Positions 12,307 to 58,972 of a stretch of DNA of 59,013 bases are shown here, piece by piece. The DNA is from a virus: positions 1 to 59,013 of IMG/VR virus record IMGVR_UViG_3300030329_002180, one strand, 5' to 3'. Every line of letters begins with the position of its first letter. Within the stretch, counting starts at the first letter, position 1. The position numbers and the translations under genes were made by a program. Under the pieces are notes generated by a model. That model made no database searches, was not told the DNA's origin, and saw nothing but the letters and a program-made list of their open reading frames with translations.

Positions 12307-13869
12307 ATGGAGTATAATCAACCAAGTCTCCTTATCAAAAATTTAGATTTTGATACGGAAGCTAAGAGTAAAATAATAGCTGGTGTTGAAAAACTAGCTA
12401 AAGCAGTAAAATCTACCTTAGGAGCGTCTGGTAAATGTGTTATTTACGAAGACGCCCGAGGTAACCCGGTGGTCACAAAAGATGGTGTAACCGTTGCAGA
12501 GAGCGTAGTCTTATACGATCCCGTGGAAAATATAGGTGCAACACTAATAAAGGAAGCTGCTAAAAACACAGTGAAAGAAGCTGGTGACGGTACTACTACC
12601 GCTACGGTATTAGCAGAAGCACTTATTAAGGAAGTTAATAACCACAATGGAATATCTATTAGACAAATAAAAGATGGTATTAATTCTTGTTTAGATAAAG
12701 TGAATGATTATTTAGACAATGTATCGATACCTGTTGACGGGAACATGTTAGAAAGTGTTAGCACTATTAGTTGTAATAACGATAGAGAACTAGGTTCTAT
12801 TATAGCCGAAGCCTATAATAAAGTTGGTAAAAATGGTGTGGTTTTAATGGAAAGCTCTGGAACAGAAAAAACATATGTTGATGTTGTTGATGGAGCAAAA
12901 ATAGAATCAGGATTAACCTCACCTCACTTTGTAACTGACACTGATAAACAAAAAGCAGAACTAGAGAAACCACTAGTACTAATCGTATCGTCAGAAATCC
13001 CAAATGTAAGAAAAATACAAAATATATTAGAGTTTGCTATTAAAAATAATAGATCTTTATTGATAGTCGCTCCAGTCTCACAACAAGTGAAAGCTGCTCT
13101 TTTAATGAATAAAGTTAAAGGTAATATAAAAATAAATATAATAGATCCACCTGGATTTGGACCTACAAAAAGAGATACTATAAAAGATTTAGCTATATTA
13201 ACTAAATCTACAGTTATAAACGAAGAGCTTGGTGATGATTTAGATTTAATATCTTTAGATGTTTTAGGAGAAGCAAAAAGATCTGTGACTGATGATAAGA
13301 GCACTATAATAACAACAGTAGATGATATAGAGGATATTGAAGAGAGAATTAAAGAAGTAAAAAAGATAAGAGATAAAGAAAAAGATCCTTTTTTTCAAAA
13401 GAAAATAGATGAAAGAATAGCTATGTTATCTGGTTCTGTTGGTATGATAAAAGTTGGTGCTAACTCTAAAGTAGAATTAAAAGAAAAAAGAGATAGAGTA
13501 GAAGACGCTATTTATGCTACAAAAGCTGCTTTACAAGAAGGTATTGTATCTGGTGGTGGAGTAGCTTTACTAAATGCTTCTCAACATATAGCTAGTACAG
13601 ATGTTGGTGAACAAATATTATTAAAAGCTATAACTTATCCTTTTAAGGTTATATTAGAAAACGCAGGTTTAAAACAAGTTGGACCAAGACCAAGTAAAGG
13701 TATTGGTGTTAATGTTGTAGATGGTAGTGATGTAAATATGATCGAACACGGTATAATAGATCCAGTGCTTGTTACCAAATCAGCGTTAAAAAACGCGGTA
13801 TCAGTTGTAAACACTATAATATCAGCTAATTGTGTAATTTCAAATATGAGAACAGATGAAAGCAATTAA
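12307..13869 (+). CDS. groL: GroEL chaperonin (phage-encoded)
   Basis: A 520-aa chaperonin subunit, close to the usual 540-550. The equatorial ATP site is intact: T-L-G-A-S-G-K near 37-43, V-T-K-D-G-V-T-V near 56-63 and A-G-D-G-T-T-T-A-T near 91-99. The R-V-E-D-A segment near 398 holds the equivalent of catalytic Asp398, and G-I-V-S-G-G-G-V-A near 411-419 follows. The Gly-Gly-Met C-terminal tail of bacterial GroEL is absent; the protein ends NMRTDESN. It would fold phage proteins in an ATP-driven ring with the co-chaperonin encoded directly after it. The gene overlap is 14 bp, and the order groEL-groES is the reverse of the bacterial operon. Confidence 0.95.
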   Translation: MEYNQPSLLIKNLDFDTEAKSKIIAGVEKLAKAVKSTLGASGKCVIYEDARGNPVVTKDGVTVAESVVLYDPVENIGATLIKEAAKNTVKEAGDGTTTATVLAEALIKEVNNHNGISIRQIKDGINSCLDKVNDYLDNVSIPVDGNMLESVSTISCNNDRELGSIIAEAYNKVGKNGVVLMESSGTEKTYVDVVDGAKIESGLTSPHFVTDTDKQKAELEKPLVLIVSSEIPNVRKIQNILEFAIKNNRSLLIVAPVSQQVKAALLMNKVKGNIKINIIDPPGFGPTKRDTIKDLAILTKSTVINEELGDDLDLISLDVLGEAKRSVTDDKSTIITTVDDIEDIEERIKEVKKIRDKEKDPFFQKKIDERIAMLSGSVGMIKVGANSKVELKEKRDRVEDAIYATKAALQEGIVSGGGVALLNASQHIASTDVGEQILLKAITYPFKVILENAGLKQVGPRPSKGIGVNVVDGSDVNMIEHGIIDPVLVTKSALKNAVSVVNTIISANCVISNMRTDESN

Positions 13870-14113
13870 TGATTACGTTATAGTATTAGATAGTAAAGAA
13901 GGTCCTAAAAAAATAGGAGGTTTAATATTAACTGAAGAATTAGATAGTGACAATAGGTATGTAAAGGCAGAAGTTGTATCTGTAGGTAATTTAGTAGAAT
14001 GTATAAAAGTTAAAGATATTATATATTACGATAAACACGCTGGACATGGTATATCTTGGAAAGATGTGCAATATAAAGTTATAAAAGGTAGAGATATTGT
14101 AATAATAGAATAA
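13856..14113 (+). CDS. groS: GroES-like co-chaperonin
   Basis: An 85-aa protein in the GroES fold: V-I-V-L-D near 8-12, then a mobile-loop-like segment P-K-K-I-G-G-L-I-L-T (17-26), equivalent to the GroES loop that docks on GroEL. A-E-V-V-S-V-G-N follows at 39-46, and the C-terminal strand reads VIKGRDIVIIE. It is shorter than bacterial GroES (about 97 aa), with a trimmed roof region. It overlaps groEL by 14 bp and the next gene by 1 bp, so the three are co-translated. It would cap the phage GroEL, or the host GroEL, to enlarge or retune the folding cage as T4 gp31 does; that is inference. Confidence 0.85.
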   Translation: MKAINDYVIVLDSKEGPKKIGGLILTEELDSDNRYVKAEVVSVGNLVECIKVKDIIYYDKHAGHGISWKDVQYKVIKGRDIVIIE

Positions 14114-14557: not shown

Positions 14558-14932
14558 ATGGCATTTAAAATGAAAAATCCTTTAGCTGAAAAAACAACAA
14601 GTAGTTTGAATTTTGGCGGTAGCGATGGGGAGCAATTAGCTCCTGGTGTTACTGTTATAAGAAAAAATTTAAGTAAAGGAATTATGGGTGAAGCTAACAA
14701 AGATGGTACTATTTTTATTTCTAAAAAAGTTGAACCCGGTTCTAGTCAGGAAACACAAATATTAACACATGAAATAAAACACATGGTTGATTTAAAAACA
14801 GGTAGATTAAGGTATGATGATTATAGTTTGACTTGGGATGGTCAAACTTATGAAAGAAATAAAGGTAAAATATATTTCGAAGGACGTTGGTTACCAGAAG
14901 GTTCGGCTGACTTCCCTTGGGAGAATCATTAA
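14558..14932 (+). CDS. 124-aa HEIKH zinc-metalloprotease-like protein
   Basis: His71-Glu72-Ile-Lys-His75 forms an H-E-x-x-H zinc site in the context I-L-T-H-E-I-K-H-M-V-D-L, as in small metallopeptidases. Upstream, the T-I-F-I-S-K-K strand is typical of the edge strand before the active helix. The C-terminal R-W-L-P-E-G-S-A-D-F-P-W-E-N-H has acidic and His residues that may supply a third ligand. The family is familiar from marine phage structural clusters but not characterised; virion maturation or envelope digestion are candidate roles. It is 1 bp from the previous gene. Confidence 0.6.
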   Translation: MAFKMKNPLAEKTTSSLNFGGSDGEQLAPGVTVIRKNLSKGIMGEANKDGTIFISKKVEPGSSQETQILTHEIKHMVDLKTGRLRYDDYSLTWDGQTYERNKGKIYFEGRWLPEGSADFPWENH

Positions 14933-40480: not shown

Positions 40481-42382
40481 ATGGCTGTAGGTAGAATAAC
40501 TAATAAAACAAAATCAGGAGATTCACCAGCTAAAATTTGGGGCGCTGTAATCGGGGCAGCTGTTGGTTTATATAATGGCTACAAAAGTAGAAAACAGCAA
40601 AAAAAGCAAATGAGAAGTTTACAAAGTCAAAGATCTGTAGATAATTCTAGACTTGAGAAAGGTAGAAAAGCTTATGAAAATATGAAGTTTACAAACCCTT
40701 ATGCTGGTTTTTCAAATCCTTATGCTGACACTCAAAACCCATATGCTGGTATGAGTAATCCTTTTTCTGGAATGCCAAACTCTTTTGCAGGTTTAAGTAA
40801 TCCTTATGAAAACGTTACTAATACTTATGCTGGTATGACTAATGCTTTTGATGGTATGACGAATGCTTATGATAACATGACTAATCCATTTTCTGGACAA
40901 AATGCTTTTGCTGGTATGACTAATGCGTTTGGTGGAGCTACAAACGCTTTTGCCGGTGCTACAAATGCTTTTGCTGGAGCACAAAATCCATATGCTCAAG
41001 TTACGAATACTTTTGCTGATCTTGATAATCCATATGCTTCGATGTCAAATTCTTATTCTGGTATAGAAAATCCTTACGCGGATGTTAGTAATTCTTTCGC
41101 TGAAACAAAAAATCCATATGCCGCTGTAAATAATCCATACGCATCGATGAAAAATCCTTATGATAATATGGAAAACACAGCTGAAGATTTAACTGTTGAT
41201 CAACAAGCGGCAGAATTTCAAACTAGACAAAACGCTCAATCTCAAGCTGACATATTAGGAAGTCTTAAAAGTAGTGCTGGTTCAACGGGTATTGCTTCTT
41301 TAGCCCAAGCTTTAGCTAATCAAAGTACAAATGCTAACGCTAAAGCCGCTGCTAATATTGCCCAACAAGAAAGTGCTAATCAAAAAGCTAAAGTAAATCA
41401 AGCTTCTAAAAACCAACAATTAGCTGCACAGGGACAAATGCAACTACAACAACTTCAAGGACAAGGACAGTTAAGATCACAAGAACTAAGAGGTCAAGGA
41501 GAGATGTTTGCTGAAAAACTTAGAGGTGAGGGAGAAATGAGAGCTGCGGAGTTAAAAGGTAAAGGTCAATGGTTAGCTGATGAGGCTGCTGCTAAAGGTG
41601 ATTTAGAAGTACAAAGATTACAGGGTCAAGGTCAATGGCTAGCTGACGAAGCTGCGGCTAAAGGAGGTATGAGAGCAGCTGAATTACAAGGTCAAGGTCA
41701 ATGGATGGCTGATCAAGCTAGAATGCAAGGTGAACAAGTTGCCGCAACACAGAGAATGCAAGGTGAGCAGTTTGCTGCAACGCAAAGAATGCAGGGTCAA
41801 CAGTATACCGATACTCAAATCATGCAAGGTCAACAATACGCGGATCAACTACAAGGACAAGCCTCTATGAATATTCAACAAATGCAAGCTCAAGGAGCAA
41901 TGAGCATACAACAACAACAAGCTCAAAGTGCTATGAATATACAACAGTTACAAGCAGCCGGTGGAATGCAAGCTCAACAATTGTATGGACAGGGACAATG
42001 GATGGCTGATGAAGCAGCCGCAAAAGGAGAGCAAGCTACAAATCAAATGATAGCCCAAGGACAGTTTATGACAAACGAGTTGATAGGTAAGGGTTATTTA
42101 TCAGCAAACGAGTTAAGAGGTAGAGGTGAAATAACTAGACAACAATATTTAGGCGCTGGAAACGAGTGGTTGCAAAACATGCAAGCAGCTAGAATTAGAG
42201 ATTTATATGGTATAGGTATGGCTAACTCTATGGCCACTAATCAAGCTATAACAGCTAATCAATCAGCACAAAATACATCAAGAGGTAATATGATAAGTGC
42301 GGTTGGTCAAGGTTTAGGTGCTTGGGCTGGTACTACTAAAGGTACCGATTGGTTAAATACCACCTTCGGGGTTAAGTGGTAA
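40481..42382 (+). CDS. 633-aa repeat-rich internal virion / ejection protein candidate
   Basis: Residues 1-37 contain DSPAK and a glycine-zipper membrane segment (I-W-G-A-V-I-G-A-A-V-G-L-Y). Residues about 72-238 are some 24 tandem heptapeptides of pattern N-(P/A/S/T)-(Y/F)-(A/S/D)-x-M/hydrophobic-(S/T/x). The rest is a long alanine/glutamine helix built of repeats such as G-Q-G-Q-W-(L/M)-A-D-E-A-A-A-K-G. The C-terminus carries G-Q-G-L-G-A-W-A-G-T. Membrane-active, helix-rich proteins in this place are usually DNA-ejection components. I recall this heptad family from marine phages, where its role is unproven. Confidence 0.65.
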   Translation: MAVGRITNKTKSGDSPAKIWGAVIGAAVGLYNGYKSRKQQKKQMRSLQSQRSVDNSRLEKGRKAYENMKFTNPYAGFSNPYADTQNPYAGMSNPFSGMPNSFAGLSNPYENVTNTYAGMTNAFDGMTNAYDNMTNPFSGQNAFAGMTNAFGGATNAFAGATNAFAGAQNPYAQVTNTFADLDNPYASMSNSYSGIENPYADVSNSFAETKNPYAAVNNPYASMKNPYDNMENTAEDLTVDQQAAEFQTRQNAQSQADILGSLKSSAGSTGIASLAQALANQSTNANAKAAANIAQQESANQKAKVNQASKNQQLAAQGQMQLQQLQGQGQLRSQELRGQGEMFAEKLRGEGEMRAAELKGKGQWLADEAAAKGDLEVQRLQGQGQWLADEAAAKGGMRAAELQGQGQWMADQARMQGEQVAATQRMQGEQFAATQRMQGQQYTDTQIMQGQQYADQLQGQASMNIQQMQAQGAMSIQQQQAQSAMNIQQLQAAGGMQAQQLYGQGQWMADEAAAKGEQATNQMIAQGQFMTNELIGKGYLSANELRGRGEITRQQYLGAGNEWLQNMQAARIRDLYGIGMANSMATNQAITANQSAQNTSRGNMISAVGQGLGAWAGTTKGTDWLNTTFGVKW

Positions 42383-53092: not shown

Positions 53093-53371
53093 ATGGCAAA
53101 AGAATTAAATGAAGATACTGGTTTTCATATCAGTATAAAAACCTTAATAGCTATAGGTTTTGGAATGGCAACAATAATTAGTATGTGGTTTATGCTTCAA
53201 GCAGATATAGCTGAAGCAAAAGCATTACCAGAACCACCTGAGGCAGAAGTTACTAGAATGGAATTTGATATGAAAGATCAAATGATTCGTCAAACTATTA
53301 TGACAACTCAAGAAGATGTTAAGGAAATTAAAAAATCTATTGAAAAAATAGAAGATCATCTTTATAAATAA
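53093..53371 (+). CDS. 92-aa membrane-anchored coiled-coil protein (holin- or spanin-like)
   Basis: A short cytoplasmic N-terminus precedes one membrane span (about 15-35, K-T-L-I-A-I-G-F-G-M-A-T-I-I-S-M-W-F-M-L). A coiled coil follows (about 58-92, F-D-M-K-D-Q-M-I-R-Q-T-I through I-E-K-I-E-D-H-L). This is the layout of an inner-membrane spanin or a small holin accessory. It opens the right-end envelope cassette, 7 bp before the thioredoxin-like gene. No family is certain. Confidence 0.6.
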   Translation: MAKELNEDTGFHISIKTLIAIGFGMATIISMWFMLQADIAEAKALPEPPEAEVTRMEFDMKDQMIRQTIMTTQEDVKEIKKSIEKIEDHLYK

Positions 53372-53377
53372 AATTAA

Positions 53378-53728
53378 ATGAAAAATATTGATCCTAAAAT
53401 AGCATATCTATTTGTAATTGTGTTTTGGTTAATAGTTACAACAGCTTTTGGCCAAATAGAAGTAAAACAATTTAACGCTAGTTGGAATAGCGCTAATGAT
53501 GTTGGTTGGGTTCAAAGTCTTGAAGATTGTAAAACTATAAGTTATACTGATGTCGCTAAAGACAAAGAATCTCAAAAAGAATATAAAATAGCAGTAGTAC
53601 CTACTATTATTATATTTAAAGATGGAGAAGAAGTTGCTAGATTTCAAGCTGATTTAAGTTTTAAAATGCAAGCAACAAGAGAAGAAGTACAGGAAGAAAT
53701 AAATAACCAATTAATGAGTGATTTCTAA
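53378..53728 (+). CDS. 116-aa membrane-targeted thioredoxin-fold protein lacking CxxC
   Basis: A hydrophobic N-terminus (about 9-25, A-Y-L-F-V-I-V-F-W-L-I-V-T-T-A-F-G) looks like a signal peptide or anchor. The rest reads as a thioredoxin fold: V-K-Q-F-N-A-S-W-N-S-A-N-D, helix, then I-A-V-V-P-T-I-I-I-F-K-D-G (cis-Pro75) and E-V-A-R-F-Q-A. The redox C-x-x-C that should follow W36 is replaced by N-S-A-N. It therefore cannot act as a normal thioredoxin; a binding or structural role in the periplasm is more likely. Its stop overlaps the SNase gene start by one base. Confidence 0.65.
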   Translation: MKNIDPKIAYLFVIVFWLIVTTAFGQIEVKQFNASWNSANDVGWVQSLEDCKTISYTDVAKDKESQKEYKIAVVPTIIIFKDGEEVARFQADLSFKMQATREEVQEEINNQLMSDF

Positions 53729-54186: not shown

Positions 54187-54297
54187 ATGAAACAATTATT
54201 AATTATATTATTATTATTATGTTTATCAAGTTGCTTGACAACAAAACAAACTTGTGAAAAAGAAACTAAAAAATGTTGTACAAAAAAAATAAAATGA
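54187..54297 (+). CDS. 36-aa lipoprotein (o-spanin-like candidate)
   Basis: A lipoprotein signal peptide (MKQLLIILLLLCLSSC) has an L-S-S-C lipobox with Cys16 as the lipidation site. The mature part is only 21 residues, polar and Lys/Cys-rich (LTTKQTCEKETKKCCTKK). Tiny lipoproteins near lysis genes often act as outer-membrane spanins. The stop shares its ATGA with the start of the next gene. Superinfection exclusion is the alternative role. Confidence 0.65.
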   Translation: MKQLLIILLLLCLSSCLTTKQTCEKETKKCCTKKIK

Positions 54298-56486
54298 AAA
54301 AAATAATACTATTACTATTACTACCTATAATAACTTTTGCGCAAAAAGAAGTTGTTATACATATACAAACTGATTCTTGGCCAGGAGAAACTAAATGGAC
54401 TTTGTATAAAGACGCTTATCAAGGCGATACTATAGCTTACGTTCCTTATTATCATTATAGTGCGCCAAATACAATGCACAGAGACACTGTTTATATGGCT
54501 GATAGTATTACTAATATATCATTTGTTATATATGATGGATATGGTGATGGTATTGTGAATGGTAGTTATTACGTTACTATATGTGGTGATACTGTGGTAG
54601 ATTATCCTGTATCTACATTTACAACAGGGTTAATACACAATAGAATGGTTCCTCAATGCATGCCTAATCCTCCTCCAGGTGTACCTGTTAAAATTGTTAT
54701 TAATTTAGATCAATATCAAGGCGAAACATCTTGGGATATAAAAGATACAAACGGTGTAACCTATGCTACGGGTGGTGGATATAATGTTCAACCTGATTAT
54801 GCTACAGTAATAACAAACGCTACTATCCCTAAGGGAGATTTGATATTTAATATATATGATAGCTACGGAGATGGTTTAAACGGAGCTTTATGGCAGGGAC
54901 AAGATGGTTCTTATTACGTTATTCAATGTAACGATACTTTAATATATGGTACTGATCCAGCTTTTGGATATGACACTTCACATGTATTTGTATCTGATTC
55001 TTGTCCTCCTATACTTGGTTGTACAGATGATGATTATGTAGAGTGGAATCCTTTTGCAACAGTAGATGATGGAAGTTGTCAAACACTAAAAATATTTGGT
55101 TGCTTAGATTCTACAATGTATAATTACGATCCAGGTGCCAATACAATGGAATTAATTGACACATGTACTTTTAAATTAATACTACATGATTTGATGGGTA
55201 ATGGTTGGGTTGGTTCTCATTTAAAACTAATACATCCAGATACATCATATCAATTTACACATTCAGGCGGGTTTGATGATATATATTACGTAGGATTAAC
55301 AGCTCCAGATCCAATAACATTTAGATTTCATATATCATCACAAGCTAGTTTAACCACTATAGAATGTGGATTTACTTTAATTAATCCAGAAGGTGATACT
55401 ATGATAAGTATTCAACCTCCGTTTATACAACCGTTGTTTTCTTATAATATGATTACTAATTGTGGTAATACTTGTGAAGAAAAAGTATTTGGGTGTATGG
55501 ATATATTAGCAATTAATTACGATAGTTTAGCAAACACAGATGACAGCACTTGTTATTATGGTCCTGGTTGTACTAACTCTTCTTATTTAGAATATTACAC
55601 ACAAGGTTATGTAGCTGACTATGACGACGGTAGTTGTATAACGCTAGCCGTATGGGGATGTATGGATTCTACAGCGTTTAATTATGATACATTAGCTAAT
55701 ATAGATAATGGTGGATGTGTCCCTGTTATATTAGGTTGTATGAATGAATTAGCTTTTAATTACAATCCTAATGCAAACACACCGGATACTTGCGTACCTT
55801 TAATATATGGATGTACGGATCCTACAATGTATAATTTCTGTGATACTTGTAACACGGATGACGGTAGTTGTGAGCCTTATGTTTTTGGATGTACTGATTC
55901 TACTATGTTTAACTTTAATCCATTAGCAAATGCAGATAACAACTCTTGTATTCCTTATATTTACGGTTGCACTGATCCTAGTATGCTTAATTACAACCCA
56001 CAAGCCAATACAGAAGATTTTAGTTGTATTGCTTATATTTATGGTTGTATGGATAGTACTGCTCTTAACTATGATTCAACAGCTAATACTGATAACGGTT
56101 CGTGTATCACTGTGGTTGAAGGATGTATGGACCCATCAGCTTACAACTATTCTGAGCTTGCTAATGTTAATGATAGCAGTTCTTGCTTATATAATGCTGG
56201 TTGTATCACTGGCCCAGGTGTTCCGTATTGGTTAAACGATCCTTGCTACGCTTGGGTATTATCAGTAGATGATTACTGTTGTGAAAATGAGTGGGATACA
56301 ATATGTCAAGCAACTTATAATCATTGTTTTAATGGGTGGGTCGGGCCATTATTAACAAGACAAATGGAAAGGAAAATAATAGCAATAACAGATTTACTAG
56401 GAAGACCAACAAAAGAAATAAAAAATCAACTTTTATTTTACATATATAATGATGGTACTGTTGAAAGAAAATTAATAAAAGATTAA
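54294..56486 (+). CDS. 730-aa secreted protein with Cys-repeat array and T9SS-like C-terminus
   Basis: From ATG 54294 (ATGA overlap with the lipoprotein gene) a signal peptide M-K-K-I-I-L-L-L-L-L-P-I-I-T-F-A precedes three beta domains. Two of these carry a D-x-Y-G-D-G-x-x-N/V-G calcium-site-like motif. From about residue 240 come 11 units beginning G-C-(M/T/L)-(D/N), each closed by a Cys about 20 residues later, with an A-x-N-Y-(D/N) core. The last 35 residues (I-A-I-T-D-L-L-G-R-P-T-K, then L-L-F-Y-I-Y-N-D-G-T-V-E-R-K-L) match T9SS type A sorting domains. It would be displayed on or released from the infected cell. A phage gene with this architecture suggests capture from the host. A start at 54273 is also in frame but lacks support. 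Confidence 0.8.
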   Translation: MKKIILLLLLPIITFAQKEVVIHIQTDSWPGETKWTLYKDAYQGDTIAYVPYYHYSAPNTMHRDTVYMADSITNISFVIYDGYGDGIVNGSYYVTICGDTVVDYPVSTFTTGLIHNRMVPQCMPNPPPGVPVKIVINLDQYQGETSWDIKDTNGVTYATGGGYNVQPDYATVITNATIPKGDLIFNIYDSYGDGLNGALWQGQDGSYYVIQCNDTLIYGTDPAFGYDTSHVFVSDSCPPILGCTDDDYVEWNPFATVDDGSCQTLKIFGCLDSTMYNYDPGANTMELIDTCTFKLILHDLMGNGWVGSHLKLIHPDTSYQFTHSGGFDDIYYVGLTAPDPITFRFHISSQASLTTIECGFTLINPEGDTMISIQPPFIQPLFSYNMITNCGNTCEEKVFGCMDILAINYDSLANTDDSTCYYGPGCTNSSYLEYYTQGYVADYDDGSCITLAVWGCMDSTAFNYDTLANIDNGGCVPVILGCMNELAFNYNPNANTPDTCVPLIYGCTDPTMYNFCDTCNTDDGSCEPYVFGCTDSTMFNFNPLANADNNSCIPYIYGCTDPSMLNYNPQANTEDFSCIAYIYGCMDSTALNYDSTANTDNGSCITVVEGCMDPSAYNYSELANVNDSSSCLYNAGCITGPGVPYWLNDPCYAWVLSVDDYCCENEWDTICQATYNHCFNGWVGPLLTRQMERKIIAITDLLGRPTKEIKNQLLFYIYNDGTVERKLIKD

Positions 56487-56487
56487 C

Positions 56488-57333
56488 ATGAAATGGTTAG
56501 GTCAACATATTGTAGATTTTATAGCTAGGTTTCGTAGTGACGTATATTTAGAAGGTGCAACTGAAGAAACACAAGATCATGTTGTTAGTATTAACGCTGA
56601 TGATGGTAAATTATACTACCAACCTGCGGCTACAGGAGATATAACAGGTGTAACAATAACAACAGATAGTGGTGGTGGAAGTAAAGCAACAGATACAGCT
56701 GGTAGTGCTGATTTTAGTATATTAGGATCTAGTGGGGTTGGCGTAACAAATTCTGGTACTACTATAACAGCGGTAGCTGTTCCCGGTGAGATTGACCATG
56801 ATTCGTTAAATAATTTTGATGCTAACGAGCATTTTACTCAAGCTAATATAACAACAGTTGGTACAGTATCTTCTGGAACATGGCAAGGTACGCCTATAGC
56901 TGCAGCTTATATTGCAGATAATAAAGGTACAAAACATTTTGGTGATACTATAAAAATATTACCAACTGATTTTATGTCTAACGAGGATGGAGGGGCGAAT
57001 AAATCCGCACAATTTAGAGATGATACTATAATAGGAGTTAGATCAACACATAACGATGCTGAGCTTTATGCTTTTGTAGCTATACCAGAAGGAAAAACAG
57101 CCACATCCGTAACAGTATATGGAAACGATACGGGTTTAGCAGTTAACGTTTATGAATCTGATATTAACGCTGGTGCTTTAACTGACAAAACTCCCGGTGG
57201 TGGTTGTACGGTTGGATCAGCTTGTGATATAACCGATGTAGCATCAGATGCTACTAATTATTTAGCTATAAAAGTAACAACAACAAACTACACTAACGAT
57301 ATAGTATATGGTGGTATAGTAACGATATCTTAA
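56488..57333 (+). CDS. 281-aa tail-fibre-like protein
   Basis: The N-terminus (MKWLGQHIVDFIARFRSDVYLE) is an amphipathic helix plus strand that I associate with fibre proteins in marine phages. A G-D-I-T-G-V-T-I-T-T-D unit and S-S-G-T-W-Q-G-T-P-I-A repeat signature follow (about 125-135), typical of fibre triple beta-helices. The C-terminal domain is beta-rich with K-I-L-P-T-D-F. Receptor binding is a plausible role. Confidence 0.65.
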   Translation: MKWLGQHIVDFIARFRSDVYLEGATEETQDHVVSINADDGKLYYQPAATGDITGVTITTDSGGGSKATDTAGSADFSILGSSGVGVTNSGTTITAVAVPGEIDHDSLNNFDANEHFTQANITTVGTVSSGTWQGTPIAAAYIADNKGTKHFGDTIKILPTDFMSNEDGGANKSAQFRDDTIIGVRSTHNDAELYAFVAIPEGKTATSVTVYGNDTGLAVNVYESDINAGALTDKTPGGGCTVGSACDITDVASDATNYLAIKVTTTNYTNDIVYGGIVTIS

Positions 57334-57892: not shown

Positions 57893-58972
57893 ATGAAAAA
57901 ATTAATATTAATTATACTTTTATTTCCTTTACTATTAAAATCTCAAATAGATGTTCAAGATGTAATAAAGAAGAATTTAAAGTTTTCTACATTTTACGCC
58001 GCTGTTAATGGTGGGACATCATTATCTGATGTTAATATTTTTTCTGTTGATAATGGTTTGTCTACACAAACTATTTCAACTCCTTATGATTACAATTTTA
58101 CCATAGGTTTACGTAAGATAGCGAGATTTGGATATGAAAATAAAGCACAAACGTTTTACGATGGAACGGAGTCTAATTACAGTGATGCGGCTACTGTGGG
58201 TAAAGTTAGAGGAGTTGAATACTTATTTGAGGTAGATTATAAAAGACAAGAAGGTGTAGATTATGTAGACCAACACCATTTTATTAGATTTAGTTCTGAT
58301 GATGATTGTGACGACCCATTGTGTGTTAACTTTTTTGCTTTAAAATTAGAGTATTTACAAGATGGTTTTGCTGATATAGAATATTTTGAAGCATCAGAAA
58401 GATTTAGGTATAAATATACTAGAGACTTATCCTTTAACATCGGAGCTGTACATCGACTAGCAGAGCCTTATGGATATAATCCCTTAAGCGAATGGATGCT
58501 ATCAAATGGTAATTTACATTATACTTATTTAGCAATTCAAGAAGGGTACAATATCGATGTCGCTAATAGTGAATACTTTGCACCAGATGGAACTTTAGTT
58601 GCGACTAGTCCTGAGGTTTGGGAAGCAGTTGTAATTCCAGAGGTGTTGTCAGATTACGTTGCTAAAAAAAGAAACGAATTAGAAAATGTCATACAACATT
58701 CTATCGTTATAGGATTTGATTATTATAAATATACTAAGAAAAACTGGTTACATATTTGGGGTAACATATTACCTTGGCATTATAATGATGGAAGTGAATT
58801 CTCATACCATAACTTTATAAAAGATGATCAATGGTATGATTATTCTGGAGGATTAATATACGGAATAAAACAAAATAAAAATTTAGGATATTTCATAGAA
58901 GGAAAATATAATAAGTACTGGAATAGAGAATGGTATGATTTTAAAATAGGATTAAATTACACAATATTTTAA
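57893..58972 (+). CDS. 359-aa exported, outer-membrane barrel-like protein
   Basis: A signal peptide (MKKLILIILLFPLLLKSQ, cleaved near residue 18) precedes alternating amphipathic strands (Y-L-F-E-V-D-Y-K, F-F-A-L-K-L-E-Y, H-S-I-V-I-G-F-D-Y-Y). The last strand is F-K-I-G-L-N-Y-T-I-F. The C-terminal Phe is the outer-membrane barrel assembly signal. It would insert in the host outer membrane, where blocking of the receptor or help in lysis are possible. I recall proteins ending K-Y-N-K-Y-W-N-R-E-W-Y-D-F-x-x-G-L-N-Y from marine Bacteroidota phages, without known function. Confidence 0.7.
   Translation: MKKLILIILLFPLLLKSQIDVQDVIKKNLKFSTFYAAVNGGTSLSDVNIFSVDNGLSTQTISTPYDYNFTIGLRKIARFGYENKAQTFYDGTESNYSDAATVGKVRGVEYLFEVDYKRQEGVDYVDQHHFIRFSSDDDCDDPLCVNFFALKLEYLQDGFADIEYFEASERFRYKYTRDLSFNIGAVHRLAEPYGYNPLSEWMLSNGNLHYTYLAIQEGYNIDVANSEYFAPDGTLVATSPEVWEAVVIPEVLSDYVAKKRNELENVIQHSIVIGFDYYKYTKKNWLHIWGNILPWHYNDGSEFSYHNFIKDDQWYDYSGGLIYGIKQNKNLGYFIEGKYNKYWNREWYDFKIGLNYTIF

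Follow-up and report, generated by a model that had tools for sequence, protein, structure and literature searches.

Does this phage send one of its own proteins out through the export machinery of its host? The locus that raises the question lies in a window of 59,013 nucleotides, the whole stretch of viral DNA analyzed here, in which a gene at 54294..56486 (+ strand) encodes a 730-amino acid protein. The original prediction described it as a secreted protein with a sorting tail like those of the type IX secretion system (T9SS), which would be placed on the cell surface during infection. Based on comparisons of sequences across viral and bacterial genomes, the protein is quite likely a phage-encoded T9SS cargo that would be exported by the host T9SS to the surface. 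This points to an infected cell presenting a viral protein at its surface by means of its own export machinery.

That phages encode T9SS cargo is already known. In the published text of PMC7468147, the Cryophage proteins with T9SS type A domains are an endoglucanase, a GH39 protein, and a PA14 protein, and possibilities raised by its authors are a hijacked host system, competition, and superinfection exclusion. The phage described here resembles Cryophage, a Bacteroidetes phage, in encoding a protein with a probable T9SS sorting tail. Unlike the Cryophage cargo as described in that text, the cargo here belongs to one conserved Cys-rich family with two alternative tails, is encoded in a cassette, and has no recognized enzyme domain.

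The viral contig and domain architecture of the protein

The record is a viral contig with structural and portal genes as well as genes for GroEL and a terminase. The terminase shares 62.5% identity with the one encoded by an uncultured podovirus from Manatee Spring and approximately 46% with the one of Flavobacterium phage elemo, and Cellulophaga phages are also among the 87 records that match it.

We judged the open reading frame to be real; an in-frame ATG is located 7 codons upstream, at 54273. All features described below are on the + strand. The N-terminus of the 730-amino acid protein, MKKIILLLLLPIITFAQ, resembles a signal peptide by eye and by hydropathy, with residues 1–16 (54294..54341) forming the signal-peptide-like segment. 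Although this assignment is heuristic, the same kind of start is kept in all 72 N-terminally complete viral relatives listed. Three beta domains are supported by both the AlphaFold2 model and the relatives. Domain 1 (residues 17–122; 54342..54659) contains DGYGDG, domain 2 (residues 130–238; 54681..55007) contains DSYGDG, and domain 3 (residues 290–390; 55161..55463) contains HDLMGNG. The first two Cys-framed repeats (55017..55166) fall between domains 2 and 3, and repeats 3–11, of the GCxDxxxxNY...DDGSC type, occupy 55491..56186. By regular expression, the eleven GC...C repeats span residues 242–631, with a twelfth belonging to the terminal Cys-rich domain (56190..56363; CYAWV..VD.YCCENEWD..CQ), which is common to family members with either tail. 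In total, the window protein contains 37 Cys residues. It ends in a 39-amino acid sorting-type tail (56367..56483), KIIAITDLLGRPTKEIKNQLLFYIYNDGTVERKLIKD, for which AlphaFold predicts strands at residues 695–699, 713–718, and 723–727. A signal-peptide-like start, the three beta domains (two with DxYGDG), and the eleven repeats of the original prediction were all borne out.

The AlphaFold2 model, generated from a 22-sequence alignment, has a mean pLDDT of 55.9 and a pTM of 0.26. The three beta domains are moderately confident (block pLDDT mostly 70–89); outside them the model is poor, and the repeat region has no structure. A fold search with the beta domains returned ferlin/C2, galectin, and similar folds, but with a TM-score of only ~0.1, and it is not relied on here. 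The architecture itself is more than chance, since all three beta domains and the Cys domain are present in 68 of 68 complete viral proteins (the window protein and 67 relatives) and the Cys domain turns up in 402 stretches of viral contigs. Three of five relatives checked (L049, L061, and L073) have a MAM domain (PF00629) at the N-terminus. A PHROGs search of the window protein gave no match and identified no virion family in it, and searches of NCBIfam, Pfam, and PHROGs identified no enzymatic domain.

Two alternative tails in the viral family

The C-terminus had been predicted to be T9SS type A-like, which proved imprecise. Neither TIGR04183 nor PF18962 (NCBIfam, Pfam) matched the window protein or its tail at any reported E-value, up to E 10, so canonical type A membership of the tail is rejected. 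TIGR04183 also matched 0 of 45 short-tailed relatives. The original prediction had named the lack of a T9SS domain match as grounds for refuting it, and with TIGR04183 the window protein has none; in that form the prediction fails. The broader proposal of host T9SS use lost this direct support, but it is supported by relatives in which a type A tail matched by TIGR04183 follows the same junction and by the frequency with which the short tail closes secreted proteins of T9SS-bearing marine Flavobacteriales. Like the type A CTD (TIGR04183/PF18962), the window tail occupies the C-terminal position, and the two are swapped at the same junction in this phage family. Unlike the type A CTD, the window tail does not have a YPNP start, is about half the length, and has no model match.

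A first scan with the window protein gave 89 viral-contig stretches, 80 of which were used. Among the 75 relatives with a stop codon, 61 have the short tail (60 by regular expression plus L024) and 14 a canonical tail. The canonical tail, with YPNPT, comes after the same Cys domain, and TIGR04183 matches all 14. We also selected a tail-blind sample by the Cys domain, comprising 80 of the 402 viral-contig stretches that encode it. Every one of the 80 viral ORFs ends in one tail and only one, which is short in 67 and canonical T9SS type A in 13; none has both and none has neither. When the short tail was used as the query in a viral scan, the Cys domain was present in 78 of 78 ORFs recovered. 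Some contigs occur in more than one of these viral scans, and L022 and L080 are pieces of the same contig.

Alignment of the short- and canonical-tailed groups with hhalign matched the Cys domain at 71% identity and ended at the start of the tail. With the tail left out, a tree of 69 proteins shows 7 changes of tail type, compared with a mean of 12.9 when tails are shuffled, and at least 6 are forced by well-supported branches. The tail differs even within sister pairs, for example L010/L020 and L015/L055. Since repeats are present in the proteins of this quick tail-less tree, recombination is likely. The invariant residues of the short tail in the alignment are D, L, G, R, and Y. Profile-profile comparison of the short and canonical tails gave a probability of 5% with the phage alignments and 48% over 13 columns with wider alignments. 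Because profile homology to the canonical tails is not established, we describe the short tail as working like a short CTD rather than as a type A member. Given that the two tails frequently replace each other and one is a known T9SS signal, the simplest interpretation is that their function is the same.

The exchange with a true TIGR04183 tail also bears on whether the protein is a component of the virion, such as a fiber or decoration protein, whose ends merely resemble export signals. The beta domains and repeats would suit a virion fiber, and the gene is downstream of the structural genes and adjoins a gene at 56488–57333 that appears fiber-like by eye. Against this, in addition to the tail exchange, signal-peptide-like starts occur throughout the relatives and other envelope proteins are encoded nearby. 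Furthermore, disulfides between the 37 Cys residues would be unlikely to form in the cytoplasm, the site of particle assembly. We therefore consider a particle component, which the original prediction had offered as its alternative, improbable on the basis of the signal peptide, the cysteines, and the tail swap.

A conserved envelope cassette

The nearby envelope genes recur with the exported protein. A small protein of 92 amino acids with one TM segment and a coiled-coil-like C-terminus (53093..53371, +) has a homolog in 63 of 80 viral loci. It is followed by a thioredoxin-like protein (53378..53728, +) with a signal-peptide-like start and no CxxC, homologs of which are found in 68 of 80 loci; the two genes directly adjoin in 60 of 80. 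The absence of CxxC is typical, as only 3 of the 68 thioredoxin-like proteins contain the motif and 65 do not. Against Pfam Thioredoxin, the protein scores 21.9 bits (E 1.8e-4), below the 23.5-bit cut-off. Beyond the cargo gene, a 359-amino acid outer-membrane beta-barrel (57893..58972, +) has a homolog in 64 of 80 loci. The barrel model has a pLDDT of 70.3 and a pTM of 0.62, with approximately 14 barrel strands. Among the fold matches listed, the nearest are the CymA, OmpG, NanC, and KdgM porins (CymA: Z 12.6, rmsd 5.1 over 219 residues), and FadL, PorV, and PorP are not among them. The barrel also has no Pfam match.

This arrangement is similar to that of type B cargo with cognate PorP/SprF barrels, as reported in the available text of PMC10202324, in that the cargo gene is clustered with an outer-membrane barrel gene. 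It differs in that library search did not identify the window tail as type B, and the nearest listed folds of the phage barrel, which lacks a Pfam match, are porins.

No homolog of the window protein, the barrel, the thioredoxin-like protein, or the TM protein was found in 50,697 named phage records. The giant 3083-amino acid gene of the window is found in 41 of the 80 loci, and the others have different neighbors; in L041, for example, a ribonucleotide reductase is among them. As the neighbors differ between loci, the cassette is present in different phage backgrounds. On a 43-kb contig binned with a bacterial genome (G130:C32), the cargo, barrel, TM, and thioredoxin-like genes stand one after another (L386 13585–19458), and an amidase/PG-binding gene comes next. 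The cargo here has a canonical tail (PF18962, 50 bits), and the other genes of the contig are mostly unlike those of the window. The G130 genome itself carries the short tail. By inspection, we take this contig to be a phage binned with a possible host, providing a hint at the host group.

The amidase/PG-binding gene after this cassette could indicate a lysis-related role, with the exported protein acting at the surface or in the periplasm and the cassette forming part of an envelope-disruption module. Homologs of the genes at 14838 and 15162, the latter weakly holin-like but below the Pfam cut-off, are also near the cassette in some loci. In the window, however, these two genes are ~38 kb away, the window protein has no enzymatic domain, and some relatives have MAM domains, making a role in lysis unlikely.

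The short tail in bacterial genomes

A profile of the phage tail was searched against a first set of 14 bacterial genomes, yielding 5–27 matches in 8, a single match in 2, and none in 4; PorU and canonical tails are present in all 14. Within the order Flavobacteriales, the short tail is found in 94 of 296 genomes (E <= 1e-4, with at most 25 candidates per genome scored), and 53 of the 94 have at least 10 matches. Together with the 80 tail-blind viral ORFs, these genomes exclude a chance tail. In the cellular loci read, the stop codon is 0–2 residues after the end of the tail. The passengers are unrelated secreted enzymes and other proteins, including GH16, esterase, CotH, glucose/sorbosone dehydrogenase, and DUF1028. 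Among loci that were not randomly drawn, signal-peptide-like starts are present in 39 of 50 complete short-tailed ORFs and 64 of 76 canonical ORFs, compared with 105 of 515 with neither tail. Of 726 C-termini, 70 are short-tailed and 88 canonical, and the two sets do not overlap. CotH loci agree thinly with tail interchange: of 30, 15 are short-tailed by regular expression and 5 more by eye, 1 is canonical by eye, and 9 are unreadable. The Cys domain of the phage family was absent from the cellular loci examined, and in 60 tail-positive genomes it was found once, on a phage-like contig. Among named strains, Portibacter marinus encodes a GH16 enzyme with the short tail (L164 352–1620).

Of the tail-positive genomes of the order, 86 of 94 have PorU, as do 131 of 202 tail-negative ones (Fisher p 5e-7), a comparison confounded by clade and genome size. 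SprA is present in 7 of the 8 tail-positive genomes without PorU, so that 93 of these 94 candidate host genomes have PorU or SprA. In the remaining tail-positive genome (G295, 0.8 Mb), neither was found. Among 395 genomes drawn from the phylum, 2 have the short tail and 266 have PorU. The short tail is therefore a clade-restricted signal. With so few tail-bearing genomes, the phylum draw is too poor for co-occurrence with PorU to serve as proof, and we set it aside.

Export of the protein with the short tail serving some other outer-membrane route, such as the phage's own barrel only, would be consistent with the barrel gene in most loci and the weak profile similarity of the tail to type A tails, but we regard it as very unlikely because the tail is common in T9SS-positive genomes on unrelated enzymes without the Cys domain and swaps with type A.

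A proposed mechanism for surface display

Export by the host T9SS thus has a high probability, as judged from the C-terminus and its relatives. The protein would be synthesized late in infection, as its gene is at the end of a long rightward gene block. Sec would then move it to the periplasm, where disulfides could form. The three-stranded tail may be recognized by a PorV-type shuttle of the host, as is thought for short CTDs, with export proceeding through SprA. At the surface, PorU would trim and anchor the protein, or the phage's own barrel would hold it. Once outside, the repeats are predicted to act as a stalk, keeping beta domains of lectin- or C2-like type (in some other phages, MAM) at a distance from the cell.

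Given export, we infer that the protein is a surface mask or adhesin, a function that is somewhat favored. The variable N-terminal domains, Cys-repeat stalk, anchor domain, and sorting tail fit an adhesin or mask on the infected cell. The most likely use would be receptor masking or superinfection exclusion, or adhesion, ideas similar to those put forward for Cryophage (PMC7468147). Masking and an adhesin, along with cell aggregation, are the candidate roles of the original prediction.

A wider reading, which we put forward tentatively as having slightly less than an even chance, is that T9SS signals in marine Flavobacteriales include a second class not yet catalogued, a three-stranded tail of ~39 residues. 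Diverse phages of these bacteria would exploit both classes via one mobile envelope cassette, consisting of the Cys-rich stalked surface protein, a barrel that may anchor it, a thioredoxin-like protein that mostly lacks CxxC, and a small membrane protein. As a set, they would remodel the surface of the infected cell during lytic growth.

A published parallel to the short tail is found in Prevotella intermedia. The accessible text of PMC11969387 puts the number of predicted short CTDs at 48; these have three predicted strands and were modeled to bind PorV like long CTDs. Some have mapped cleavage and C-terminal glycosylation. Like these short CTDs, which are 40–55 amino acids long, the 39-amino acid window tail has three predicted strands, a G plus basic residue, and a basic end. 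Short and long tails also coexist in the same genomes, in this case those of marine Flavobacteriales. Conversely, the P. intermedia short CTDs keep the GxY/GxN motif D and a PT/GI cleavage motif, neither of which was seen in the short tail when the alignments were inspected by eye. They were also mostly found by HMMs derived from type A, whereas TIGR04183 does not find the window tail. CTDs can be species-specific, according to the portion of PMC11285876 available. The Discussion of PMC11969387 names P. intermedia as the only species in the phylum reported to have both long and short CTDs. If our reading is true, marine genomes would be a second case of both lengths, in another order and with a short sequence more divergent than that of P. 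intermedia.

What is new relative to the papers searched is that the short tail also occurs in host secretomes, that tails are exchanged repeatedly, and that the cassette is conserved. Among open-licence PMC papers, we found none describing this phage family or the presence of the short tail in marine Flavobacteriales, and the available part of PMC10013915 covers the host T9SS only, with nothing on this phage. The short tail escapes both TIGR04183 and Pfam, so if this reading is true, a whole class of exported proteins, up to 25 or more per 1–2 Mb genome, would be missing from the cargo predicted for ocean Flavobacteriales. It would likewise mean that a phage directs its own protein to the type IX exporter of its host and exchanges one address label for another, perhaps to match that host.

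Other features of the contig

Two further regions of the window were observed. At 12307–14113 there is GroEL together with a GroES-like gene, both of which are also present in the Manatee Spring relative. Between the structural genes and the giant 3083-amino acid gene, a 633-amino acid protein (40481–42382) contains many NPYA/NPFSG-type repeats.
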